Assembly (NCBI GenBank): GCA_005772855.1
Contig: SXIK01000214.1
Span: forward strand, 1 to 45,330
From: Planctomycetia bacterium
Lineage (GTDB): Bacteria > Planctomycetota > UBA8108 > SXIK01
DNA: 45,330 nucleotides
Direction: 5' to 3'
Shown: positions 1,554-39,758 of the stretch, in pieces
How positions within the stretch are numbered: position 1 is the first letter of the stretch
Layout: the number at the start of each line of letters is the position of its first letter
Made by a program: the position numbers and the translations under genes
Notes under the pieces: model-generated
What the model was told of the DNA's origin: nothing
Database searches by the model: none
Seen by the model: only the letters and a program-made list of their open reading frames with translations

Positions 1554-1886
1554 GACTGGAATAGTCGTTGACGGCCTCGAGGCGGTCAAGAGCGCTCTTC
1601 TCCCGCGGCATTCCGGGCCAGGAATGGAAGGATGTGCTCGGTTGATCCGGGCGTAGCGCTGAGTTATAAGAGGCGGCGTGAGAACTTGTCTCAAGGCCTG
1701 AGTTCCAGAGCTTTCTTGCCGATGGCGGCTGCGGGCTCAGCTTTCGCAAACGCGCTGGCAGGAGAGGGACCGGCCGGCTGCTGCTTGTTTAGACGGCTGC
1801 GATTGTTGGCGAAGCGCCTGTTCAGCAACGTAAGAAAAATCGGCAACAATATTTTTCCAAGGTCGACGTTCCCGAGAGGATTGTGT
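1554..1886. other. Divergent intergenic region (333 bp)
   Basis: This lies between the start codons of the amine oxidase (minus) and the FG-GAP protein (plus), so it should hold both promoters. An AT-rich patch at about 1828-1862 (AGAAAAATCGGCAACAATAT) stands out from the GC-rich surroundings and is the likeliest promoter zone for the plus-strand gene. The Shine-Dalgarno GAGAGGA lies at 1874-1880, six bases before ATG 1887. I see no convincing sigma-70 pair, RNA gene or extra coding region. Confidence 0.4.
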
Positions 1887-4799
1887 ATGGTCAAGTTCAC
1901 TTGCAGGCATGGGGTTGCACGGATGGCACTGTGGACACTGGCGGTGATCGGTGCGATCGCCCGGGTGGAACTGGCCGCTCAGAGCTCAAGTGCAAACTGG
2001 ATTCGGCACAGCGGATTCGAGGGGCTGAAGCAGGGAGTCGCCGGTGACTCCGGTGCAAATCTCTATGTCTCGGCCAGGGGGCGCCTTCAGACCATCAACC
2101 GTTGGGACTTGAACCGCGACGGGGAGCTGGACCTCCTGTTCACCCAGGATCACAACAGTGTCTACACTCCCGATTCGTTGATTTACTGGGGTGGGGACGA
2201 TGGCTACCGTTCGTTACTGCCGGAAATGTGGAAGCTTCGGGCTCCCTTTTCGCTTCTCGGCTACGTCGAGCAGGCAAGCAGCCGCATATCGCGCCTCCCC
2301 AGCGCAGGGGGGGGGCGATGCCAGATAGCTGACCTCAACCTTGATGGCTACCTCGATATCGTCTTTGGCAACTACATGCACAACTACCGCACGGACCAGG
2401 CCGCTTACATCTACTGGGGGAGTGCCCAGGGATTCAAAGCGACAAATCGGCTGGAGCTGCCGGCCTTGCTCGCAGGCGGCGTGGCGGTGGGCGACTTGAA
2501 CGGTGATGGCCTGCCGGAGGTGGTGCTCGCGAACCATGGTGATGAGGTCGGCGAGCACCATGAATATGGCCGCCATCTGGAGTCCTATATCTACTGGGGT
2601 AATTTGAACGGGTACGAAGTTTCGCGGCGCTCGTCGATTCCGACCATCAGCGCGGCTGACGTTGCGGTGGGGGACTTCAACGGCGATGGATCTCCAGACC
2701 TGGCCTTCCTGAACAGCAACCGGCAGGAGCAGAGTGTATTTGTTTACCGTGGAGATGGGAAAGGGGACTTTGGCGAGCGGCGGCGGCAAGTGCTATCGCG
2801 CGCCGAGATGCGTCTGAGCGCGGTCGTGAAGGGCTCATCCACGGGGAGCGCCGCAATGAAGACATTGCTCGCGGCCGAGCTGAACGGCGACAAGTTCACC
2901 GACCTCGTGGTGGGCGGGACAAGCCATGCCGTGGTCTTTTCGGGATCGGCGCGCGGCCTGGAGGCCGAAGGGACAGTCGATTTGCCAGCCAAGAATTGTA
3001 CGGGAATGGACGCCGCGGATCTGAACCGCGATGGGCACGTGGACCTGATCCTTGCCAACGAAGGCACCGATCAAGAGGCGCCACCCCCATCGAGTATCTA
3101 CTGGGGCTCAGCTCAGGGTTACAGCGCCGAGCGGCGCCTGGATCTGCCGACCTACGGGGCTGCGGCCGTCAAGGTGGCCGATCTGAACCAGGACGGTCTC
3201 CTCGATATTCTGTTCGGAAACGCTCACGATTTTGAAAGTCAGGATGTCCCCTCGTACATCTACTGGGGGGGGGCGAATGGGTTTGCGAGCCATCTTCGGA
3301 CGGATCTGCAGGGATTTGGGGTCATCGGCTGTGGGGTGGCCGATCTGAACCGTGACGGCAAGCCCGATATCTTGCTGGTCAGCCACGTCAGCGGTTCGGG
3401 CGTCCTTCCATCGCCCATCTTCTGGGGAAACAGGGATCACTACTATTCGAGCGCTTCCGTCTCCCTCCTCGAGCCAGGCGGCAACATGAAATACAGTGTG
3501 GCCGACCTGGATGACGATGGCTATCCGGACATCGTGTTCCTGCAGGAGAAAAAAACCTTCGTGTGGTGGGGTAGCCCCGCGGGTTACAAAAAGGAGAACA
3601 GGACTTGCTTGCCCTTCGAGTCGCCCCTGAGCCATTGTGTTGCTGACCTCAACCGCGACGGGCATCTCGACATTATCCTTGTTGTTGTGGCAGCCCCGGG
3701 GGACAAGCGAGCCAGGGCGCTCATCGTATGGGGGAATGCGGATCGTCTCCAGGGAGTGCGGACCAGCGAGCTGCAGCTGTCAGGGCCCATCCTGGAATCG
3801 AACATGGTTGCAGACTTGAACAAGGACGGCTACCTCGACTTGATTTTCCCCGTCTGCGGTTGCGAGAACTCCGAGATTTGGTGGGGAAGCAGCGAGGGGT
3901 ACAAGCCCGAGAAGGTCACGCAACTGAGAACCCACGACCCTCCCCACGCCCTGGCCGCCGATCTGGACGCCGATGGTTGGCTGGACGTTGTCTTCACAAG
4001 TGGCCGCACGGTGAGCCAAAGTGCTGATTTGCAGGGGATCATCTACTGGGGTGGCCCGGAAGGTTACTCGGCGAAGGCGCAGACGCGATTTGAGGGATTC
4101 ACGAGTTTGGATGCGACAGTGGCGGACCTGAACCGGGATGGGCATCTGGACCTTGCCATCACCAATTACAAGTCGGATGTCACCCGCGAGCTTCCAGCCA
4201 TGATCTACTGGGGAGATGGGAGCCGCAACTTTGGCAATGGGAGGCGCACACTTCTCGAGGCGCATTCCTCCTCGGCGATCGACTCCCTGGACCTGAACCG
4301 GGATGGCTGGGTGGATCTGGTGGTCTCCAACCACCAGCGGTATTTCGACCATGCGGAGTCGGGTACCTACATCTACTGGGGGAGCGACAGGGGCTTTTCT
4401 CCCTTGAATCGGAAGCAGGTTCCGACGATTGGCGTACACCTCGATGCGATGGTGGATGCCGGAAATATCTACACCCGCAAGTACGAGTGGCATTATGTTT
4501 CGCCGCCGATCGAGGCTCCGAAAAACACGAGTTTCGCGCGGATGGAATGGAAAGCCGAGACTGAGTTTGGAACCGGCGTGAAGTTCCAGGTGCGCAGCGC
4601 CTCGACACGCGACGGGTTGGAGAAGGCCGCCTGGTCCGGGCCGGCCGGGGCGACCTCCTTCTACACGTCCTCGGGAGCCCGCTTGACCAGTCCGGGGCGG
4701 GAGCATGGCTGGCTTGAATATCGAGCCGTTCTCTTTTCGCCCGATGGAGGGAATTCTCCCCTTCTGACCGAGGTGGCCGTGGAGTGCGTTCCCAGGTGA
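1887..4799 (+). CDS. Exported FG-GAP/VCBS repeat beta-propeller protein
   Basis: This 970-residue protein has an N-terminal signal peptide (hydrophobic stretch ALWTLAVIGAIA, then Ala-rich up to about residue 30). It is then built almost entirely of repeats of about 55-65 residues with the pattern DLNRDGxxDLxxxN followed by YIYWGxxxGY. Each DxNxDGxxD loop is a calcium-binding FG-GAP/VCBS motif, and such repeats fold as beta-propeller blades. The last ~110 residues (from about KYEWHYVSPPIEAP) differ and look like a beta-sandwich domain found at the end of similar proteins. There is no dockerin-like tail, unlike the other three FG-GAP proteins here. The start is fixed by GAGAGGA six bases upstream and by the signal peptide; the same frame is open back to 1632 but that extension is not signal-like. 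Role unknown; probably extracellular adhesion, binding or scaffold. Confidence 0.85.
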   Translation: MVKFTCRHGVARMALWTLAVIGAIARVELAAQSSSANWIRHSGFEGLKQGVAGDSGANLYVSARGRLQTINRWDLNRDGELDLLFTQDHNSVYTPDSLIYWGGDDGYRSLLPEMWKLRAPFSLLGYVEQASSRISRLPSAGGGRCQIADLNLDGYLDIVFGNYMHNYRTDQAAYIYWGSAQGFKATNRLELPALLAGGVAVGDLNGDGLPEVVLANHGDEVGEHHEYGRHLESYIYWGNLNGYEVSRRSSIPTISAADVAVGDFNGDGSPDLAFLNSNRQEQSVFVYRGDGKGDFGERRRQVLSRAEMRLSAVVKGSSTGSAAMKTLLAAELNGDKFTDLVVGGTSHAVVFSGSARGLEAEGTVDLPAKNCTGMDAADLNRDGHVDLILANEGTDQEAPPPSSIYWGSAQGYSAERRLDLPTYGAAAVKVADLNQDGLLDILFGNAHDFESQDVPSYIYWGGANGFASHLRTDLQGFGVIGCGVADLNRDGKPDILLVSHVSGSGVLPSPIFWGNRDHYYSSASVSLLEPGGNMKYSVADLDDDGYPDIVFLQEKKTFVWWGSPAGYKKENRTCLPFESPLSHCVADLNRDGHLDIILVVVAAPGDKRARALIVWGNADRLQGVRTSELQLSGPILESNMVADLNKDGYLDLIFPVCGCENSEIWWGSSEGYKPEKVTQLRTHDPPHALAADLDADGWLDVVFTSGRTVSQSADLQGIIYWGGPEGYSAKAQTRFEGFTSLDATVADLNRDGHLDLAITNYKSDVTRELPAMIYWGDGSRNFGNGRRTLLEAHSSSAIDSLDLNRDGWVDLVVSNHQRYFDHAESGTYIYWGSDRGFSPLNRKQVPTIGVHLDAMVDAGNIYTRKYEWHYVSPPIEAPKNTSFARMEWKAETEFGTGVKFQVRSASTRDGLEKAAWSGPAGATSFYTSSGARLTSPGREHGWLEYRAVLFSPDGGNSPLLTEVAVECVPR

Positions 4800-4851
4800 A
4801 CCCATTCAGACAGTCCCGGTAAAACGGGTGAAGAAACTCTCATGCTCCGCG

Positions 4852-4877
4852 TGGCCAGGATGGGGACCTCCTGGCCA
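4852..4877 (+). other. Perfect hairpin downstream of the FG-GAP gene
   Basis: TGGCCAGGA at 4852-4860 is exactly complementary to TCCTGGCCA at 4869-4877, giving a 9-bp stem with an 8-base loop, 52 bp past the stop codon at 4799. No T-run follows on either strand, so it is not a canonical intrinsic terminator. It may stabilise the mRNA end, assist Rho, or be a decayed piece of the adjacent repeat. Confidence 0.45.
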
Positions 4878-4966
4878 AAGCCTCCCAGACCATCGGCGCC
4901 GGAGGGACGCCACCAGACGGCCGGCACGGGGGGCTTCCTCCCCCGCGCGGAGTATACAACCTGTAC

Positions 4967-5356
4967 ATACCGCACGCGGGCAGTGATGAGACCTTTTGCA
5001 GCCTGCGAAAGGTTGCGGCTGCTCGCGCCAGAGGCGCCCGGCGCCCATCAGGCGCCGAGGAGGGGGTTTGCGGCGAGCTGGCGGAGCCGTAAACGGCTCG
5101 GAGGGAGCCGGCGCCAGCGAGAGCTGGCGGCTCCCGAGAGCCTGGCCCGGAGGCGCACGCGCAGCGTGCGACCGGAGGGGCCGCGTGTCGTTGTTGCCTC
5201 CGCCCTCGCTCCACCCTCGCTCCACCCTCGCTCCGCTCGGAGGCGAGCCGTCGTGGGGGAGGGTCCGCCTCCCCCACCAGCAGAAACGAGCAGCAGACTT
5301 GAGATGGTCCTCCTCTGCCCATTCGGAATGTCTTACGTGTGGGCGCGCGAGGTATA
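4967..5356 (+). repeat. TATACC-ended dispersed repeat, copy A (390 bp, with hairpin module)
   Basis: The left end (TACCGCACGCGGGCAGTGAT) and right end (GTGTGGGCGCGCGAGGTATA) match copies B and C closely. The two termini are imperfect inverted repeats of each other: about 13 of 17 positions agree when the right end is read as its complement, using the left end of copy C. Inside are a 5' block (about 4967-5064) rich in GGCGCC palindromes, an extra module (about 5066-5180) absent from copy C, three tandem 11-mers CCCTCGCTCC(A/G) at 5203-5235, and a conserved 3' block (about 5281-5356). Open frames through it are shared with copy C only because the DNA is repeated; I take it as non-coding. It fills most of the 660-bp gap before the gene at 5460. 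The rest of the gap (4800-4966) holds the hairpin at 4852 and a TIR-like CCCGCGCGGAGTATA at 4942-4956. Confidence 0.85.
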
Positions 5357-5459
5357 ACTTCACTTTGCCCCGTGGCGCACCTCGCCCCCTGCAAGTATTC
5401 TTGCAGTCCCAGAGAAGTGTCTGTTGAAACCAGAAACAAGCTTGAGGACTCTTGACCTT

Positions 5460-7919
5460 ATGGGCAATTGTGCGCCTCGATTCGCCGGTTCGATCGGCTG
5501 GTTTTTCTGCTGGATTCTCACAGCAACGCCAGTCGCACGGTCACAGGAACAACCCGTTTTTCCCCGACCCGTGCTGATCCCGGTCGAGGCTTCTCCTGGC
5601 GCCATGATCGCTGGCGACTGGAATGGCGATGGGCGCCTCGATTTGGCCGTCCTCCATCCCTCCTCGGGCAAGCTGGGCGTGCTCCTTCACAAGGGACCTG
5701 GAAATTCTGAAGCCCCTCTGGCAAGGCCCCAAATGTTCCCGGTAGGCTTGAGTCCGCTCTCCGTGGATGCCGGAGACCTGGACGGGACGAATGGCCCCGA
5801 TCTGTTCGAGGTCTCGAGCGGTTCAGGTACTGTCGGAGTGCTGCTCAATCGCGGCGACGGGACTTTCCTCGTCGGGAAGACTCTCGATGTCGGCCTGAGC
5901 CCTCGTGTCGGCCGGCTCCTCGACCTTGATTCCGACGGCCGACTGGACGCCGTGGTCGGCACTGCAAAGTCCAGGGAGCTCCAGGTCTACCTCGGCGATG
6001 GACAGGGCAGTTTCGCGAGGCAGCGTGGGGTCCAGCTTGGCGGAAACCCGCACGCGCTCGCTGTCGAGGACTTCGACGGCGATGGCATCATCGACGTCAC
6101 TGCCGTCTATGCCAACAGCGAGGTGGGAGGTGTTCAGTGGCTTGGAGGGATCGGCAACGGTACGTTCAAACGCCCCATCACGACATCCCTCGAGAAGGTC
6201 GACTTCGCCGTTCCGCGTCTGGTGGCCCCTGGCGATTTTGATGGTGACGGCCTCGTCGACTTGGGCATTGTGACCGACAACGCGCTTCTCCTCAGTCTGA
6301 GGTTTCGACGTGGCGACGACTTCGTCGTCTCGCTCGTCGGCAAGGTACCGGCGACGAGCTTGGAATTTGTCCGGGCCGTGGACTTTGATGCGAGTGGACG
6401 CCTCGACCTCACCACTCCCCTGCAAGTTCCGGGCGGAAATGGGGTCAGGATCTGGAAGGGCGAGCCAGAGGCAAAGTTCTCTTTCCTGGGAGATGTGCTC
6501 GTGGGTGGACCGCTTCGTGACGCGCTTTGGGTCGATATCGACAGCGACGGCACGCTGGACCTCGTCGGCTCGCAACCCCGACCGGAGGGAGTCCTCGTCG
6601 TGCGGGGCACCGGCCCCGGCCGCCTGGGCGTTCGAGCCACCGTGGACCTGGAGACCACACCCAGAACGCTCAAATTGGTTGAGCTTGACGGAGACTCAGT
6701 CCTGGAGATCCTCGCCGTCAGCGCGAACTCGGTCCACTTCGTGCGCGCAGCCCAGGCGGGGGGCTTCGCACGATTTGCGCGCCAAGAATTTCCCGGCCGC
6801 GCCTTCGAGGACGCGGCCGTGTTGAGCCTCGCCGAGGGCAACCGATTCGCCCTGGCCCTCCTCGACCTGGCCCGCGAGGAGGTCGTCGTGCTGCCGCTCG
6901 GACCCGCCGGCCCGGCCGGTAATCCAGTAACCCTGGCGGCGGGAGATCTGCCCCGCAAGCTGGCGGTCGCGGACCTCGACGGCGACGGATCCAGCGACCT
7001 CGCAATCTCCCACGCTGGTGACTCCGGGCTGCGAATTTTCCTCCAGCCTGTAGCCGAGGGAGCTTCAAAGCGGAGACTCGACGTTGAGGTTAGCGGTGCG
7101 CAGACCGCACTCGACGCGGGCGACCTCGACGGCGATGGCCTCGCCGACTTGGTCCTGGGAACAAGAACGGAGATCGTGCTGCTCCTGAACCAGGGCAGAG
7201 GCAAGAGCTACCGGAGCCTTGCGATCGATGGCTTTTTCGCTCCACAGCAAATCACCATGTTTGGCGCAGAGCGCGGCACGCCCGCCGACCTCGCGATCGC
7301 GACCGGCGAGAAGGTCGTGGTGCTTCGCAGGCCTGCCGTGGAGGCAGCACCGAGAAGCGAGGAGATCCGCTTTCGGAACAGGGTCGAGACGATCGCAGTC
7401 GCTGACGTGACCGGCGACAGCGAACCGGATCTCCTGAGCGCTGTCAAGGACTTCGTGCTCCTCAGCCGCGGCGTTCCCGAGGGCAACTTCGCCGAGCCCG
7501 AGAGCTATCCGGTCGGCTCATCCCCGAGGGGCATCGCGGTGGGTGTCCTCCATCCAGACGGAGGCATCGATTGCACGACTGCCGACTCCGGATCCAGAGG
7601 GCTCTCGATCTTGCACGGGACCGCGCGTCTGTCCCCTCAACCGGGAACATTTCGGCGAGGTGATTCCGACGGAAGCGGGCGTGTGTTGATCACCGACTCC
7701 GTGATCACTCTCCTGTGGCTCTTTCGCGGCGGATTGCCACCTGTTTGCGTTGACGCCGCTGACGTTAACGATTCGGGCGACGTGAACGTCAGCGATGTCG
7801 TTGGCACGCTCGAGTTTCTTTTCCGCAGCGGCCCCCCACCGGCCCCACCGGGCCCCACCCAGTGTGGCCCGGACGTCAAGGCCGACGATCTGCCGCGCTG
7901 CACTGAAGCAGGGTGTTGA
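5460..7919 (+). CDS. Exported FG-GAP/VCBS protein with dockerin-like C-terminal tail
   Basis: The protein has about 819 residues: a signal peptide (hydrophobic SIGWFFCWILTA, likely cleaved near ARSQEQ), then about a dozen FG-GAP/VCBS blades with motifs such as DWNGDGRLDLAV, DLDGDGSSDLAI and DLDGDGLADLVL. The last ~85 residues hold two EF-hand-like calcium loops, DSDGSGRVLITD and DVNDSGDVNVSD, each followed by a hydrophobic helix ending LF, as in dockerins. They are followed by a Pro-rich linker and CGPDVKADDLPRC. The ATG at 5460 gives the more typical signal peptide. A TTG at 5424 preceded by AGAGAAG is an alternative that adds 12 residues. Repeat copy A ends about 100 bp upstream, so its 3' end lies in or near the promoter. 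Probably a secreted or cell-surface protein; ligand unknown. Confidence 0.85.
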   Translation: MGNCAPRFAGSIGWFFCWILTATPVARSQEQPVFPRPVLIPVEASPGAMIAGDWNGDGRLDLAVLHPSSGKLGVLLHKGPGNSEAPLARPQMFPVGLSPLSVDAGDLDGTNGPDLFEVSSGSGTVGVLLNRGDGTFLVGKTLDVGLSPRVGRLLDLDSDGRLDAVVGTAKSRELQVYLGDGQGSFARQRGVQLGGNPHALAVEDFDGDGIIDVTAVYANSEVGGVQWLGGIGNGTFKRPITTSLEKVDFAVPRLVAPGDFDGDGLVDLGIVTDNALLLSLRFRRGDDFVVSLVGKVPATSLEFVRAVDFDASGRLDLTTPLQVPGGNGVRIWKGEPEAKFSFLGDVLVGGPLRDALWVDIDSDGTLDLVGSQPRPEGVLVVRGTGPGRLGVRATVDLETTPRTLKLVELDGDSVLEILAVSANSVHFVRAAQAGGFARFARQEFPGRAFEDAAVLSLAEGNRFALALLDLAREEVVVLPLGPAGPAGNPVTLAAGDLPRKLAVADLDGDGSSDLAISHAGDSGLRIFLQPVAEGASKRRLDVEVSGAQTALDAGDLDGDGLADLVLGTRTEIVLLLNQGRGKSYRSLAIDGFFAPQQITMFGAERGTPADLAIATGEKVVVLRRPAVEAAPRSEEIRFRNRVETIAVADVTGDSEPDLLSAVKDFVLLSRGVPEGNFAEPESYPVGSSPRGIAVGVLHPDGGIDCTTADSGSRGLSILHGTARLSPQPGTFRRGDSDGSGRVLITDSVITLLWLFRGGLPPVCVDAADVNDSGDVNVSDVVGTLEFLFRSGPPPAPPGPTQCGPDVKADDLPRCTEAGC

Positions 7920-13643: not shown

Positions 13644-16091
13644 TCATCGGCACCCCAGGGAACAGGCTCCAAGCTCGTCTGGCGTTGGATCTTCGCCACA
13701 CAGGAGCGGCCCGGGCCTGGGGGGCTCCACCCCCGCCTGAAATAGCCACTTGAGGACCACCAGAGCATCGGTCAGGTTGAGGTGGCCGTCATCATCGGCA
13801 TCGCTCGCGTCCTCGCAGGGGCGTTCGCTGCCAAGGAACAGGTAGCCGAGGAGGGCAATTGCGTCGGTAATCTCTGTCTTGCCGTTCTCATCGGCGTCTC
13901 CGCGTCGGAAGGGGCCCGTTGGCGCGTCGGAAGGCACTCCATCGAAGACGTAGGCCGTCCCCGCGGTGAAGAGAGCAAGGTCCGGCACTCCATCCTGGTT
14001 GAGGTCACCGACCAGATGATCCAACGGCTGCGGTAAGTCACCGCCGAAATTGAACGGGGGATCGAGTCCGTCCAGCCCACGGTTGAAGATAAATGAGACC
14101 GTCTGGTTGCTGTTGGCCGTGGTGATGTCGAGAAACCCGTCGCGGTTCACGTCGGCGATGAAGAGGGAGCGCGGACCGCTCGAGAGCTTCACAGTCGCAG
14201 GCTTTTCGAAGGCTCGATTTCCACGCCCGTAAAGGACGAAAACCTCCGGGGCGGCGGAAGTCGCCGCGATCAGGTCAGGAAGGGTGTCCCCGGAGACGTC
14301 CCCCATCGCGAGCTCGAGGAAAGACCGGGGAGCCTCGCTGCGGCCGGCCTCCACAAACTCCGTGAAGCTTCCATCTCCTTTCCCGTAATGAACGGCGAGG
14401 ACAGCCGAGGCGGACACGATCATGTCCACGAACCCATCCCGATCCACATCTCCGAGGACCAAGGCCCTCGGCCGCTCAAGAGTTGGGACGGGCAGGGCTT
14501 CGACAAATTTCGCGCCATCCTGGTTCAGGAAGATTGCCACCTCGCTTGTCGCGATGCGAAGGCCAGCGAGGTCCACGGTCTCGTTGCCGTCGAGCCGCCC
14601 CGCCGAGAGAGGGGAGCTAAGCAATCCTGCAGGCAGAGACTGGCTCTTGAGGACCTTTCCACTGCGGTCGAGGAGCGTCACGAGCAGAATGCTCCCGGCA
14701 AGATTGGACCCGGCGAGATCCGGGACATCATCCGCATTCAGGTCGACGACGACCAGCTGCTTGTAGGCCAGCTCCGTGGGGGTGGTCAGGGAAGGCACCG
14801 CGGACGACCTGAAGCCCGGGCCCATGAAGATGTCCACGCTTGCCGAGCCAGAGCTGGGAAAGAAGAAATCCCCGGCGCCATCGCCATCAAGGTCCGCCAC
14901 TGCGGAAGCCGTGCCCGATCCAATCGTGACCTTGCCTGCCTCGAGAAACTGTTCCCCTGCGCGTCCCCAGAACACCGTGAGTGCAGAAGACCCGGTATCC
15001 GCAGTGACCACATCGAAGCGTCCATCGGCATCGAGGTCGGGAGCAGCCACAAAAGACGGTAGATCTCCGGTCGGACCAAAGGGAATCTGTTGAAGGAACC
15101 TCCCATCGCCCTTTCCTCGATGGACCGAGAGGGTCCTGCTCCCCTCGGACACGAGGGCAAAATCCTGTTGGAGGTCTCCGTTCAGGTCTGCCGCTCCGGC
15201 CGTGGCGATACCCTGGGTGGCCAGGCCGAGCGTCTGTTCATAGCTACCGTCACCCCTCGAAATGCCCGCGACTGCCTTGGAAATCAGGCCCTGCGGCGTG
15301 GTGTCCTGACACGTGAGGAGAAGGTCTCCCTTGCCGTCGTTGTTCCAGTCAGCCGTGAAGACAAACCTTCCGCAGGGTGGAAATCCGCTCACTGGATTCC
15401 GTTGCAGGAAGCTTCCGTCTCCCCGGCCCTCAAATGGCAGGACCCCCTCGGTGCCATGCCCAACGATCAGATCGAGGTCGCCATCCCCATCGTAGTCAAG
15501 GCTTTCCCCGGAGTGAGGCTGCACAATGGAATAGTCCTTGAGGAAAGCGAGACCTCCGTTGCCATCACCGAGGAAGACCGAGACGGAGTTGAGGGAAAAG
15601 TTTGCGGTCGCGATATCGAGGCGTCCGTCCTTGTTCCAGTCGCCCACCATGATCCAGCGCGAGGCGCGCGCCTGACTGAGCGCCCGGGGACCCTGGAAAG
15701 CTCCACGGTCATTACGGATCAGATAGGCCGTCGTGGCCGGGTCCGCCGCAAGAATGTCATCGTAGCCATCCCCGTCCAGGTCTGCGGCCCGCACCATGTA
15801 GGTGCTCGCCCCCACGGCCAGCGAGGACTTGGTCCAACGAGTACGGGTGGCAGGGTCCTGGAGGAACAGCTCGATGAGCCCCGTCCCACCCGCGGTAACC
15901 AGGTCCAGCCGGCTATCCCCATTGAACTCACCCGCCGCAACGGTCACCGGGCTTGTGACATCACTGATTGCGAAGGGGGAGGCGAATCGGATCTCCCCGG
16001 CGCGGGCAGAATGGACTTCAAGAAGGGACACGAGGAATACACCCGCGAAAACGCACACAGGCTGAATGTTCATCGGGTACCGTGCATTCAC
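13644..16091 (-). CDS. Exported FG-GAP/VCBS protein with dockerin-like C-terminal tail
   Basis: This protein of about 815 residues has a signal peptide (MNIQPVCVFAGVFLVSLLEV, cleavage near ARAGE) and about twelve FG-GAP/VCBS blades, for example DLDGDGYDDILA, DWNKDGRLDIAT, DYDGDGDLDLIV and DVNRDGFLDITT. The last ~85 residues carry the dockerin-like tail: DADENGKTEITD and DADDDGHLNLTD loops, each with a helix ending in LF, then CGEDPTPDELGAC. GTG 16091 is preferred because CGAGG lies eight bases before it; ATG 16073, 18 bases further in, is an alternative and also keeps the signal peptide. It lies tail to tail with the amidase, 28 bp apart. It resembles the gene at 5460 in layout and tail, so the two are probably paralogues. 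Likely secreted; function unknown. Confidence 0.85.
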   Translation of the reverse strand: MNARYPMNIQPVCVFAGVFLVSLLEVHSARAGEIRFASPFAISDVTSPVTVAAGEFNGDSRLDLVTAGGTGLIELFLQDPATRTRWTKSSLAVGASTYMVRAADLDGDGYDDILAADPATTAYLIRNDRGAFQGPRALSQARASRWIMVGDWNKDGRLDIATANFSLNSVSVFLGDGNGGLAFLKDYSIVQPHSGESLDYDGDGDLDLIVGHGTEGVLPFEGRGDGSFLQRNPVSGFPPCGRFVFTADWNNDGKGDLLLTCQDTTPQGLISKAVAGISRGDGSYEQTLGLATQGIATAGAADLNGDLQQDFALVSEGSRTLSVHRGKGDGRFLQQIPFGPTGDLPSFVAAPDLDADGRFDVVTADTGSSALTVFWGRAGEQFLEAGKVTIGSGTASAVADLDGDGAGDFFFPSSGSASVDIFMGPGFRSSAVPSLTTPTELAYKQLVVVDLNADDVPDLAGSNLAGSILLVTLLDRSGKVLKSQSLPAGLLSSPLSAGRLDGNETVDLAGLRIATSEVAIFLNQDGAKFVEALPVPTLERPRALVLGDVDRDGFVDMIVSASAVLAVHYGKGDGSFTEFVEAGRSEAPRSFLELAMGDVSGDTLPDLIAATSAAPEVFVLYGRGNRAFEKPATVKLSSGPRSLFIADVNRDGFLDITTANSNQTVSFIFNRGLDGLDPPFNFGGDLPQPLDHLVGDLNQDGVPDLALFTAGTAYVFDGVPSDAPTGPFRRGDADENGKTEITDAIALLGYLFLGSERPCEDASDADDDGHLNLTDALVVLKWLFQAGVEPPRPGPLLCGEDPTPDELGACSLGCR

Positions 16092-16212
16092 AGGAATCGC
16101 CTCGGAGCAATAAACAAAAATGAATGGGACATGGCACCCCTCCATTGTAGGGGCAGGCTAATGTCCAAACGGGATCGAGAATCACAAATACGCAGGAAGC
16201 CTTCGAATTGGG

Positions 16213-18175: not shown

Positions 18176-21100
18176 ATGCTTGGAGACATGACACGCTCAG
18201 CCCTGCTTCAAAGACTCCTGTGGAGTCTCGTGGTTCTGTTCATCGCCCTCCCTGGGTGCCGTTCGAACTCAGACTCAAAGAAGCGCTCTCAGGCTCAAAC
18301 GCCAGTGCTCACGGTGAAGTCCACCAACCCAGTCGGGGGCGCCGAGGGCGTCGCACGGTCGACCACTGTCAGTGTGACTTTCTCCGGGGCGATCGATTTC
18401 GCAACCGTCGATGAACGGAGCTTCGCAGTCACGGGCTCGAAGTCCGGCCCCGTGCAGGGCGTTTACACGTACGAGTCAGCAATCTACAGGGTCAACTTCA
18501 CACCCCCGGCTGAGCTCATGGCAGGCGAGAAGGTCACCGTTCAGCTCTCGACTGCGGTTCTGTCGCCGGCAAGGACGCCGCTTACTGCAGCCGACTTCTC
18601 CTTTAATATCGCCTCCGACCCGCCCGTGCCGGCCCCCCGACTGGCAGTGGTGGACTCCACCCCCATCGCCTTCGCGAATGATGCGTCCCCCACCCTGGCA
18701 ATCACGATACGTTTTGGCGAGCCTGCAGACTCAAGCTCAGTCTCGCCGGGGTCGGTCCGGGTCACGAGCGGCATGACCGGACGCGTTCCGTCGCGCCTCA
18801 GTGTGAGCCCCGATGGGCTCACCTTGATCATCACGCCCGAGAATCGACTCCTTGCTGGCGACAAGATCAACGTGCAGCTCTCGAGCTCAATAAAGCCTGT
18901 CAGCGGGGCGCCTTTTGACGGCTGGTCTTACGAATTCCGCACCGCGGCATCTCCGCCGCCTGAGGGAACACGAATCGACAGGGTCCACGGCACGCTGGGA
19001 CGAGTTGTCATTCTCGAAGCGGGTGACCTGAACCAGGACGGTCTCGCGGACCTCGTCCACGCGAGCGAAAACGAGACGTTTGTGGACGTACTCCTCGGCA
19101 ACGGCGAGGGGACTTTCACCCTCGGGATTCGCATCGACCTCTTCCAGCCCGTGCTTTCGCTGGCTCTCGCAGACCTCGACGCCGATGGTACCAATGATCT
19201 GGCCGTTGGCTCAACGGATCGCGTCCAGGCCTATCTGATGCGCTCCCGGGAGGGTGCCGGCGGAAAGCGAGAAGTGACCTCGGTCGATGGTGCCAGGGCA
19301 CCGACAGGCGCGGCAGTGCGAGGAATCACAGTGGGTGACCTGGACCACGAGGGCCTCGAAGACTTTGTCCTCGACACGGATCGAGGCCTTCAAGTTCTCC
19401 TCGGAGGAGTGGATCAGCGACCCGTCCAGACCGTCGGAACGAGCCGGCAAGCCCGGACGAACCTCGTCTTGCACGACCTCGACCTCGATGGCAATGCCGA
19501 TCTCCTTTACGGTGATCGGCGAGGTGGACGGGTGACGTTTCACCTGGGAATGGCTTCGCGCACATTGCCTCTGGGTGAGGCACGCCACCATGAGCTGGGG
19601 TCCGACGCAGAGCAGGTGGACGCCGTCAACTTGAGCGGGGAGGCATATCCCGAGATCGTCGTCCTGACACTTGGCGGCGCTCTGGGAGCGGAATTTCGGA
19701 TTCTGCGACGGACCGCTCCCGGGTACTCCGGAGACACGTTCGAGGCCTTCAGTGAGCCGCCTCGGGCCGCTCCGCTCGAGGGTGGCGCCACCCTCGAGCG
19801 GAGCCGATTCACAGCTGGGGATCTCGACGGAAACGGGCTCCTCGACATCATCCTGGCCGATCAGCCACGGGAGGTGGTGGTGTGGTACCCAAACACCGGG
19901 GGGGTCGTGGACTTTTCACAGGGTGGGCGCCACCTCCTACGGGTTCCAGAGGCCCTCCTGCCACTGGCCACTGACCTTACCGGCGATGGGAGCCTTGAGG
20001 TAGTAGCCGCCGGTCAGAGCGAGATCCACGCGCTGGTTCCACCAACGAATCTCCCCGAGGACAGGTTTGAACTCTCGATCGAGGACACGCAAGCACGCCA
20101 GAAGGATCTGGAAGCCATCGCTCTGGTGCGATCGACTCATTCAAAGCCACTGGAAGCCTATTCGGTGGCACTGTCCTACGATGGCGACGTGCTCCTTCCA
20201 GGACGCGTCTCCATTGAAGGCACTGTGACTGGCGAAAGTGGGGTAGAGTTCTCGAGCTTCCAACGCTATACATCCGTCGATGCGGTGAGCTACAGCGTCA
20301 TCGCAGAGTTCAGCGCCCCATTCGAGAACCGTGTGATCCCCGCTGGCGAGAACCAGCTCCTGTTCCGACTTCTCTTTGATGTACTCCCCGGTGCGCCCCT
20401 GGGAGAGACTACGCTTCACTTCATCGAGAGCGCCGGCGAACCCAAGGTGCCGACGACGTTGATTGTCGAGTCCAGGAGCCTCCAGCCCCGCACAAGGGAT
20501 GGCAAGATCACCGTGCTTCCACCAAAGGAGACTCCGCCACCCGGCGGAAACAGCATGAGGATCGAGGAAGTCCACACGCTGGCCGGTAACGAGGGCCAGG
20601 TGCCAGCGCTCGGGACCAACGAGAAGAATGCAGAGGCGTTCACTTCAATCTTCAGTTTCGATCCCAACGCAATCGAGGTGCTCAACCTTGATCTCTCGGC
20701 CTCAGCAGTCGGAGCTCTCAACCCCGATATCTTTGTGCCGTCGATCGACAACGAGACGGGCAACGCGGCCATGACCGTGATCTTCGACATCACGCCACCC
20801 ATTGACGGAATCGGCCTCGCGCCAGGGACTGATTCAGTGCTCTTCATGATTCGCTTTCGGGTCAAGCCAGAGACCAATCCAGGCACGTACAAGTTGGAAT
20901 TCAAGAATCAGATCGGCACACCTCCCTTGAACAACATCTTCGTCTTTGGGGGCCAGTCAGTGTTTCCTGACCTCGTGCCTGGCTCCGTGATCGTGGATCC
21001 GATTTCTGGCATCAAGTTCATTCGAGGCAACGCCGACGGCGGACCACGAGTCAACCTCGGGGATGCTGTCACGATCGCCGACTTTCTTTTTCGCGGAGGC

Positions 21101-21277
21101 GCCCAACCCGGGTGCCTCGATTCGGCGGATACCGATGACAACGGCAAGTTGGAGCTGACCGACCCAATCTTGCTCATGAACCACCTCTTCAAGGGGGGCC
21201 CTCCGCCAGCGCCGCCTTACCCCGATGAAGGCCTGGACCCGACCCCGGACACGCTGAGCTGCTCCGCCGAAACATAG
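18176..21277 (+). CDS. Lipoprotein with Ig-like, FG-GAP, cohesin-like and dockerin-like domains
   Basis: This 1033-residue protein has a lipoprotein signal (LLWSLVVLFIALPGC, lipidated Cys at about residue 28). Two Big_5/SbsA-like Ig domains follow (about 45-145, beginning VKSTNPVGGAEGVARSTTVS, and about 155-260), then FG-GAP/VCBS blades (about 270-625; DLNQDGLADLVH, DLDLDGNADLLY, DLDGNGLLDIIL). Next come two beta-sandwich regions that look like cohesins (about 630-760, with AYSVALSYDGDVLLPG, and about 785-950, with FTSIFSFDPNAIEVLNL), and a dockerin-like tail (GNADGGPRVNLGD, DTDDNGKLELTD, then LDPTPDTLSC). The first tail loop is degenerate. ATG 18176 has AGGA about 11 bases upstream. Carrying both cohesin-like and dockerin-like modules on one lipid-anchored chain is unusual; it could anchor the other dockerin-tailed proteins of this window. 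The cohesin call is from fold pattern only. Confidence 0.8.
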   Translation: MLGDMTRSALLQRLLWSLVVLFIALPGCRSNSDSKKRSQAQTPVLTVKSTNPVGGAEGVARSTTVSVTFSGAIDFATVDERSFAVTGSKSGPVQGVYTYESAIYRVNFTPPAELMAGEKVTVQLSTAVLSPARTPLTAADFSFNIASDPPVPAPRLAVVDSTPIAFANDASPTLAITIRFGEPADSSSVSPGSVRVTSGMTGRVPSRLSVSPDGLTLIITPENRLLAGDKINVQLSSSIKPVSGAPFDGWSYEFRTAASPPPEGTRIDRVHGTLGRVVILEAGDLNQDGLADLVHASENETFVDVLLGNGEGTFTLGIRIDLFQPVLSLALADLDADGTNDLAVGSTDRVQAYLMRSREGAGGKREVTSVDGARAPTGAAVRGITVGDLDHEGLEDFVLDTDRGLQVLLGGVDQRPVQTVGTSRQARTNLVLHDLDLDGNADLLYGDRRGGRVTFHLGMASRTLPLGEARHHELGSDAEQVDAVNLSGEAYPEIVVLTLGGALGAEFRILRRTAPGYSGDTFEAFSEPPRAAPLEGGATLERSRFTAGDLDGNGLLDIILADQPREVVVWYPNTGGVVDFSQGGRHLLRVPEALLPLATDLTGDGSLEVVAAGQSEIHALVPPTNLPEDRFELSIEDTQARQKDLEAIALVRSTHSKPLEAYSVALSYDGDVLLPGRVSIEGTVTGESGVEFSSFQRYTSVDAVSYSVIAEFSAPFENRVIPAGENQLLFRLLFDVLPGAPLGETTLHFIESAGEPKVPTTLIVESRSLQPRTRDGKITVLPPKETPPPGGNSMRIEEVHTLAGNEGQVPALGTNEKNAEAFTSIFSFDPNAIEVLNLDLSASAVGALNPDIFVPSIDNETGNAAMTVIFDITPPIDGIGLAPGTDSVLFMIRFRVKPETNPGTYKLEFKNQIGTPPLNNIFVFGGQSVFPDLVPGSVIVDPISGIKFIRGNADGGPRVNLGDAVTIADFLFRGGAQPGCLDSADTDDNGKLELTDPILLMNHLFKGGPPPAPPYPDEGLDPTPDTLSCSAET

Positions 21278-22010: not shown

Positions 22011-22390
22011 TATACCGCACGCAGGCAGTGATGAGACTTTTTACAGCCTGCGATAGGTTGCGGCTGCTCGCGCCATGGGCGCCCGGCGCCCATCAGGCGC
22101 CGAGGAGGCCGAGGCCGAGTGTTGCGGCCGACGTTGGGGAAGTCCGCCTCCCCCCACCAGCCCTTATACCTCACGCGGGCAGTGATGAGAACTTTTGCAG
22201 CCTGCGATAGGTTGCGGCTGCTCGCGCCATGGGCGCCCGGCGCCCATCAGGCACCGAAGGAGGCCGAGGCCGAGTGTTGCGGCCGACGTTGGGGAAGTCC
22301 GCCTCCCCCACCAGCCCTTGACGAGCAGCAGACTTGAGATGGTTCCTCCTTTGCCCATTCGGAATGTCTCACGTGTGGGCGCGCGAGGTA
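22011..22390 (+). repeat. TATACC-ended dispersed repeat, copy B, with tandem duplication of its 5' half
   Basis: The element starts TATACCGCACGC at 22011. At 22165 it starts again (TATACCTCACGC), so 22011-22164 and 22165-22318 are two near-identical units of about 154 bp, each running from the terminal motif through GCGCCCGGCGCCCATCAGGC to CCGCCTCCCCC(C)ACCAGCCCTT. Only the second unit continues into the common 3' block (about 22320-22390, ending GGGCGCGCGAGGTA). It lacks the hairpin module of copy A and the 11-mer array. The right end lies four bases from the stop codon of the DUF4340 gene, so it may serve as the 3' end of that minus-strand operon. The final TATA of the right terminus is lost (GGTAAG). 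Confidence 0.85.
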
Positions 22391-36334: not shown

Positions 36335-37399
36335 TCAGAAAGGCCAGTAGTTCCCCACCCCGAAGCGCTTCAGGAGGCGCCTCCAGCGCCGATGAACCCT
36401 CCCGGTGAAGGTGGCGTGGCGCATGCGATCACGCTGTCGGAGGATCTTTCGAATCCAGCGGCGAATCGGTGGTCCCTCACCCAGCCGCCGAAGGTAAGTC
36501 TTCAGAAACCGGTAACGCCCGATGGGGCCGAACACCATTCTGGCCCACTTGTCGAGGCATGCCAGGTCCCTCGCTGCCAGAGAAAAACTGAGGCCTCGAC
36601 CACGTAGCCACCACAGCCTTGGAACGTCACAGAGCACGAGTTCCACGCGTCCTTCTTTGTTGCGCCTCGCCAGGATGTTCTTTCCATAGAGTGTTCGAAC
36701 GTAGCAGCGGGCCCGGTGGAGCTTGGCCAGGTCCTTTGCAAAGACCAGCATGGCCTCACGAATCTCCGCAGCGGAGAAATCAACTGGCTTCCCCCTCGTG
36801 CACGCCTTGAGCCACGTCTTCAGGCTGGTGGCACCCGCGAACTCCCGCGTAATGAGAAACGATCGATGGTAGAGGATCCAGAAACCCGAGTGGCCACAGG
36901 CGAGAGGCTCGACGGCGGGAAAGCCCAAGGACCTCAGAGCCAGCAGATTGTGAAATTCCCGCTCTGCCCGCGGCACTGTCAAGATTCCATGCAGTAGAGT
37001 CGGGAAAGGGTAATGCTCGTCCTTGAGCACAAGTCCCGCGCTGGCACTGGCGACTCGCGTGGCGGCAGCGATCCCCCCGCGGAAACCTCCACCGGCAGGA
37101 CCACCCCCGTTGGCCGAGGGCAAGGGGTCATCAAGACGCACCACTGTGCGGCGTCCTCGATCGGAGAGCAATTGAGCCTCGGGGCAGCTCCTTCGGGGCC
37201 GGAAGAGGCCCTCCCTTCCAAATACAGACTTGTACCACTCTGTACGGTTGGCCGGTACCACTACCCTCCGGTACCTGAGGAACTTTCGCTCCTCAATATA
37301 GGCAATCGGAGGGCCCGTGCCCCAGTCCGGGTTGGCGCGCATGATCGGGCCAAGGGTATCATGCCAACGCAGCAAATCCAGGGGGGCGCCGAAGTCCAT
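36335..37399 (-). CDS. LPS-kinase-like (WaaP/InaA family) protein with altered catalytic loop
   Basis: This protein of about 354 residues has the order of a WaaP/InaA kinase: LVLKDEHYPFPTLLHGIL, then AEREFHNLLALRSLGFPAVE, a hinge SFLITREFAGATSL, LAKLHRARCYVRTLYGKNIL and VLCDVPRL. In active members the catalytic loop reads H-x-D-L-x3-N. Here it is VRTLYGKN (residues 234-241), so the catalytic Asp is replaced by Thr236. Asn241 and the metal-binding Asp258 remain. The C-terminus is very basic (RRWRRLLKRFG), fitting membrane binding. The start is uncertain: ATG 37399 is the first Met outside repeat module D, ATG 37342 is another, and the frame is open back to 37642 through the repeat. It may be a pseudokinase or use another residue. 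The gene lies between the ArnT-like gene and the methyltransferase gene. Confidence 0.7.
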   Translation of the reverse strand: MDFGAPLDLLRWHDTLGPIMRANPDWGTGPPIAYIEERKFLRYRRVVVPANRTEWYKSVFGREGLFRPRRSCPEAQLLSDRGRRTVVRLDDPLPSANGGGPAGGGFRGGIAAATRVASASAGLVLKDEHYPFPTLLHGILTVPRAEREFHNLLALRSLGFPAVEPLACGHSGFWILYHRSFLITREFAGATSLKTWLKACTRGKPVDFSAAEIREAMLVFAKDLAKLHRARCYVRTLYGKNILARRNKEGRVELVLCDVPRLWWLRGRGLSFSLAARDLACLDKWARMVFGPIGRYRFLKTYLRRLGEGPPIRRWIRKILRQRDRMRHATFTGRVHRRWRRLLKRFGVGNYWPF

Positions 37400-37450
37400 G
37401 CTCCTCGCTGGGGAGGAAGACCCGCACCGAGGCGCTTGGCAGCGTCCTTC

Positions 37451-37609
37451 CCCCTCCGGTCGCACGCTGCGCGTGCGCCTCCGGGCCAGGCTCTCGGGAG
37501 CCGCCAGCGCTGTCGCTGGCGCCGGCTCCCTCCGAGCCGTTTGCGGGTGCGCCAGCTCGCCGCAAACCCTCGGCGCTCGATAAGCGCCTTGCGCCTCCGG
37601 CGCCGATGG
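37451..37609 (-). repeat. Solo copy of the hairpin module (module D)
   Basis: Read on the minus strand, 37567 down to 37451 matches the internal module of copy A (about 5066-5180): GTTTGCGGCGAGCTGGCG, AACGGCTCGGAGGGAGCCGG, then CCCGAGAGCCTGGCCCGGAG and GCACGCGCAGCGTGCGACCG. The long hairpin is kept (GGGAGCC-GCCAGC against GCTGGC-GCC-GGCTCCC with a 3-base bulge) while its loop differs (GACAGC here, GAGA in A). Flanking this, CCATCGGCGCCGGAGG (37609-37594) also occurs at 4890-4905 beside copy A. The TATACC ends are absent. It lies between two minus-strand genes, just before the LPS-kinase-like gene. Confidence 0.8.
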
Positions 37610-37659
37610 CGGGTGTGCGTTGGCCAGGGATCTCCCAGTCATGGCCTCGCGCAGTCTAC

Positions 37660-39497: not shown

Positions 39498-39758
39498 TAT
39501 ACCGCACGCGGGCAGTGATGAGACCTTTTGCAGCCTGCGAAGGGTTGCGGCTGCTCGCGCCAGAGGCGCCCGGCGCCCATCAGGCGTCGAGGAGGGAGAG
39601 GCCGCGTGTCGTTGTTGCCGCCGCCCTCGCTCCGCCCTCGCTCCGCTCGGAGGCGAGCCGTCGTGGGGGCCTCCCCCACCAGCAGAAACGAGCAGCAGAC
39701 TTGAGATGGTCCTCCTCTGCCCATTCGGAATGTCTCAGGTGTGGGCGCGCGAGGTATA
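39498..39758 (+). repeat. TATACC-ended dispersed repeat, copy C (261 bp, shortest form)
   Basis: It begins TATACCGCACGCGGGCAG and ends GTGGGCGCGCGAGGTATA; these ends are imperfect inverted repeats. It is nearly identical to copy A over the 5' block and the 3' block but lacks the ~115-bp hairpin module and has two rather than three tandem CCCTCGCTCCG-type 11-mers (39624-39645). It probably shows the basic form of the element. It takes up most of the 407-bp gap between the ArnT-like gene (minus) and the YejM-like gene (plus); the rest (39759-39863) has no visible feature except GAGGAGAGCCTG just before the ATG, which is the ribosome site. Confidence 0.87.

Follow-up and report, generated by a model that had tools for sequence, protein, structure and literature searches.

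Bacterial MITEs are usually viewed as derived, with both their ends and their interior, from a single insertion sequence by shrinkage. Among the described repeats that resemble the family analyzed here (family I), the repeat unit of pneumococcus (RUP) is a 107-bp element for which mobilization by IS630-Spn1 has been proposed (PMC2229807). Like family I, RUP is a short non-coding element with terminal inverted repeats (TIRs), about 100 intergenic copies and TA borders (PMC2229807); its TIRs match a resident IS630, whereas family I elements measure 180–413 bp, have a hairpin cassette as their interior, and no insertion sequence with matching ends was found for them. The Correia/NEMIS and ERIC repeats are likewise TA-bordered TIR elements with stem-loop transcripts (stem-loops are predicted for family I), and NEMIS comes in internal size variants, as family I does. 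They differ from it in sequence and host, however, and PMC2229807 describes no cassette common to other end types.

REPs, including REPINs with their RAYTs, share with family I the character of GC-rich palindromes scattered between genes, and have been reported in Planctomycetes (PMC3733652). In contrast to family I, which has TIRs and TA borders and in whose genome no Y1 transposase was found, REPs are 20–40 bp long, carry a GTAG or CGTC tag, and have Y1 transposases (PMC3733652). No description of the family I repeat was found in open-access papers, which were the scope of our literature search.

Here, we analyzed a 45,330-nucleotide stretch of DNA (the window), which is the entire contig C204 of a Planctomycetota MAG (the host genome, G000; 5.03 Mb in 244 contigs), and in which three intergenic copies of a dispersed repeat with inverted ends had been predicted from the sequence alone.

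Results

The analysis confirmed each of the three predicted copies (Table 1). Copy B belongs to the family, but it is not simply a longer copy: it has two left halves in tandem at a spacing of 154 bp, with the second left end at 22167, and a single right end. The repeat is dispersed well beyond the window: a pattern search of the whole genome, allowing at most 3 mismatches per pattern, returned 85 left and 90 right ends, while the reversed patterns used as a control had 0 matches genome-wide. The orientation shared by the three copies in the window is a coincidence, as the ends are mixed between the strands across the genome (48/37 and 43/47).

Table 1. Repeat elements of the window and their positions
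Feature	Position	Strand	Remarks
Family II element, GCTCCGCGTGGCCAGG...CCGCGCGGAGTATA	4844..4956	+	11 bp before copy A
Family I copy A, extra ~110-bp hairpin module	4968..5354	+	outer CA (left, changed), TA (right)
Family I copy B, left half twice, one right end	22013..22390	+	outer TA (left), AG (right, changed)
Family II element, ACTGCGCGAGGCCATGACTGGGA...GCGAGGAGCATG	37397..37655	-	same kind of hairpin interior; blocks 98% / 93% identical to copy A
Family I copy C, TACC...GGTA	39500..39756	+	outer TA at 39498-39499 and 39757-39758
Hairpin cassette within copy C	39557..39679	+	GCGCC/GGCGC and CGGCGCC/GGCGtCG stems through CCTCCCCC arm

We read 49 distinct full copies with lengths of 180–413 bp, the upper value being long for a bacterial MITE. 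The length classes arise from the extra hairpin module of about 110 bp and from short GC-rich repeats whose number varies, and internally expanded and truncated variants occur together with decayed copies that retain only the left or only the right end. One further copy (L129, on contig C63) is broken soon after its left end by the start of a putative IS66-type transposase gene, identified by eye. Since many contigs end within the element, some copies have been split by the assembly, and the repeat explains part of the fragmentation of the genome assembly.

The imperfect inverted ends of the original prediction were borne out: the left end TATACCGCACGCGGGCA and, on the opposite strand, the right end TATACCTCGCGCGCCCA match at 13/17 positions, a level reached by 10 of 200,000 17-mer pairs drawn at random in the window, and the inverted repeat runs on into a TGAGAC block on both sides. 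In a comparison of 93 left with 89 right ends, about 90–100% conservation holds up to the TATA on both sides and gives way to background beyond it, breaking off at TATA/CC...GG/TATA with unrelated flanks beyond; on the left border there is a T/A preference one base outside the TATA. A flanking TA had been thought possible in copy C only, but genome-wide an outer TA is present at 91–94% of the left and about 90% of the right ends, and one of the two has changed in copy A (CA on the left) and in copy B (AG on the right). Joined flanks, searched against the retrieved loci as candidate empty sites, gave self-matches only and no empty site. The TA seen at both borders in about 90% of ends may be a target duplication that does not itself belong to the element.

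In addition to the intergenic position of all three window copies, none of the 43 copies scored (those with enough flank, against a simple codon-usage gene call) lay inside a predicted gene, and the neighboring genes occur in all orientations (convergent, divergent, antisense) with no clear orientation bias. Among the genes of the 45-kb window are four large FG-GAP repeat proteins (1632-4799, 5424-7919, 13644-16145, 18176-21277). A Kdo/WaaP kinase-like gene has 36335-37642 (minus strand) as its longest ORF, of which the initial ~80 codons fall inside the family II element at 37397-37655, so that the start of this gene is probably further downstream.

The interior of family I is a series of GC-rich hairpins. 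For a compact copy (L095), the predicted fold is a single closed multibranch structure whose base is formed by the TIRs (-125.5 kcal/mol, z -5.1); the fold of copy C is less striking (z -2.0). In an alignment of 41 copies from five genomes, four cassette helices keep 96% of their pairs, and 28 cells are changed on both sides of a helix versus 7.2 in shuffles and 1–4 with slid helices. This covariation is supporting but not conclusive, as much of it comes from one pair in helix 2 that separates the genomes and related copies inflate the counts.

Unlike the family I ends, which were present in none of the 391 other sampled genomes of the phylum, the cassette is shared more widely. A 90-bp cassette core taken from G007, a genome of the same order as the host, matches 6 of 392 phylum genomes, host included (E<=1e-6); within the set of scored candidates, G146, G160, and G332 had 28–41 matches per genome. 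The core pattern had no match in IMG/VR, the cassette had none in PLSDB plasmids, and Rfam returned nothing for the window at gathering score or for six cassette loci at E<=1. The exact right-end pattern of family I had no match in GTDB r220 contigs. A hit in G046 was dropped as an apparent chance match to a coding region. Since the ends are confined to the host among these genomes, family I is a lineage-specific expansion.

Most cassettes of the host genome sit within family I ends, but the cassette recurs there behind the ends of families II and III. Family II elements are 98–149 bp long in most copies and have TIRs near ACTCCkCGCGGCC / CGCGAGGAGTAT, and family III ends read CTGAGAGCCTGAGCAATAATC ... 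CTCAGAGCCTGAGCAATTCTTGCTCAGGCTCTGAG. In G007 the cassette lies inside 201-bp elements with ends GGCGTGGTTC, three full copies of which are bordered by 8-bp target duplications (ggattcat/ggattcac, gtttttct/gtttttct, and catgtttc/catgtctc). In G332 it is flanked by CTGAGCTACTAGG and GCGCTGAG, and in G146 and G160 by CTGTACTAC and GCGCTGTG; the cassette elements of these three genomes are CTGA-ended.

Most cassette elements of G332 begin at CTGAG, the TGA of which is the stop codon of the upstream ORF in sense orientation (seen in L195, L206, L212, L215, L218, L246-L265, and others); the ORFs that end there usually extend to the edge of the retrieved sequence. Five G332 copies (L209, L224, L250, L254, L260) have a common variant left flank (GTGNATCACACCACTAGG) that continues upstream for another 40 bp at least, as though these copies were seated in another repeat.

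Several loci of the host combine parts of different families. In two of them (L144 and L063) a family I left end is followed by all or part of the cassette and then by a family III right end, and a third (L066) apparently joins a family I left end to a family II right end. These three chimeras suggest end-swapping and are most simply explained by recombination within the cassette that the families have in common. The 22 bases upstream of the family I left end in L144 are identical to positions 3-24 of L289, which open another contig bearing a family III right end, and may represent an assembly overlap or a real common site. About 11 family I copies adjoin a family II end via a common TATA, a contact that insertion of family I at the TA bordering family II would produce, and one copy (L023) sits at a TA inside the left end of a family III element, which is also expected for TA insertion. 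Together, the different settings of the cassette suggest the transfer of one hairpin module among mobile elements of different kinds.

In agreement with the original prediction, the 25 main window ORFs that were scanned include no match to a transposase family. A transposase whose own ends match those of family I, which that prediction had called for, was looked for in the host genome and not found; an exact search with the left TIR returned only family copies of the known type, one of them cut by a contig end. An IS630-type element on contig C126 (L168, ~1885-3210), which holds the only DDE_3 match in the host genome, was rejected as the mobilizer since its TIRs (GTGCCGTCTTTCATAAG) differ. 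This element has TA at its borders and separates two parts of what appears to be a single alpha-2-macroglobulin-like gene, named by eye. The MAG is incomplete, and the autonomous copy may be missing from it, as assemblies of this kind readily lose short contigs that are bounded by repeats. Many named MITEs also have no known autonomous partner.

The Y1_Tnp profile had no match in G000, G001, or G007, all of which carry the cassette, and the Y1 genes inspected in other genomes had no cassette within 1.5 kb. These two results disfavor a RAYT origin, which we rejected for the host also because TIR elements of this length are unlike REPs.

Discussion

Of the two element types originally proposed, a non-autonomous MITE or a REP-type element, the first is supported by sharp common ends, unrelated flanks, intergenic location, TIRs, and TA borders, and the second is not supported. 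Family I is a genuine MITE family, undescribed as far as could be checked and ordinary as a kind. We consider it likely that a TA-targeting DDE transposase, most probably of the IS630/Tc1-mariner-like type, mobilizes it in trans by a presumed cut-and-paste mechanism. This putative enzyme would recognize the bipartite terminal repeat (TACCkCrCGCG..CA plus TGAGAC) and excise the element, which would then insert at a TA dinucleotide that becomes duplicated to give TA/TACC...GGTA/TA. Counting against this reading are the different TIRs of the one DDE_3 element, the search for empty sites that yielded none, and a length that reaches 413 bp. The GC-rich hairpin passenger may be exchanged between element families by recombination.

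Tentatively, the conserved, covarying Planctomycetota cassette might be a portable passenger of several unrelated non-autonomous transposon types (those with TA-type TIRs, those with TIRs and 8-bp duplications, and CTGA-ended palindromes) that has retained a function, exerted either as RNA or as DNA. Such a function could be, for example, to insulate the insertion site or to end or stabilize transcripts, as the exact placement at stop codons in G332 hints.

A different role for the cassette, as the real unit of spread, seems improbable to us. It would then be a structured Planctomycetota ssDNA or RNA module that spreads by itself in a REP/HUH-like manner, the TATACC ends being a local decoration, which would fit its occurrence behind different ends in the six genomes, the compensatory changes in its stems, and the presence of Y1_Tnp genes in G332, G146, and G160. 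However, three other cassette-bearing genomes yielded no Y1_Tnp match, the Y1 genes examined had no cassette nearby, and both the enclosure of most host cassettes in family I ends and the 8-bp target duplications of the G007 element point to DDE enzymes that recognize ends. Very unlikely is an immobile family I selected as a structured RNA or regulatory element (a terminator or mRNA stabilizer) with the TIRs as the closing stem of the RNA, because, even though the closed fold of the compact copy (weaker in copy C) and the compensatory changes of the core agree with it, the unrelated sequence directly beyond the ends in ~90 copies needs insertion, sites of every orientation relative to genes are used, Rfam has no match, and relatives lack the ends.

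With family I read as a TA-targeting MITE, its unusual part is the hairpin cassette common to several element types. An interior that is common to several end types in one genome and in distant Planctomycetota, together with the chimeras, suggests a modular assembly of MITEs with a common hairpin passenger at the center, and the cassette-bearing genomes provide a set in which to ask what the passenger contributes.
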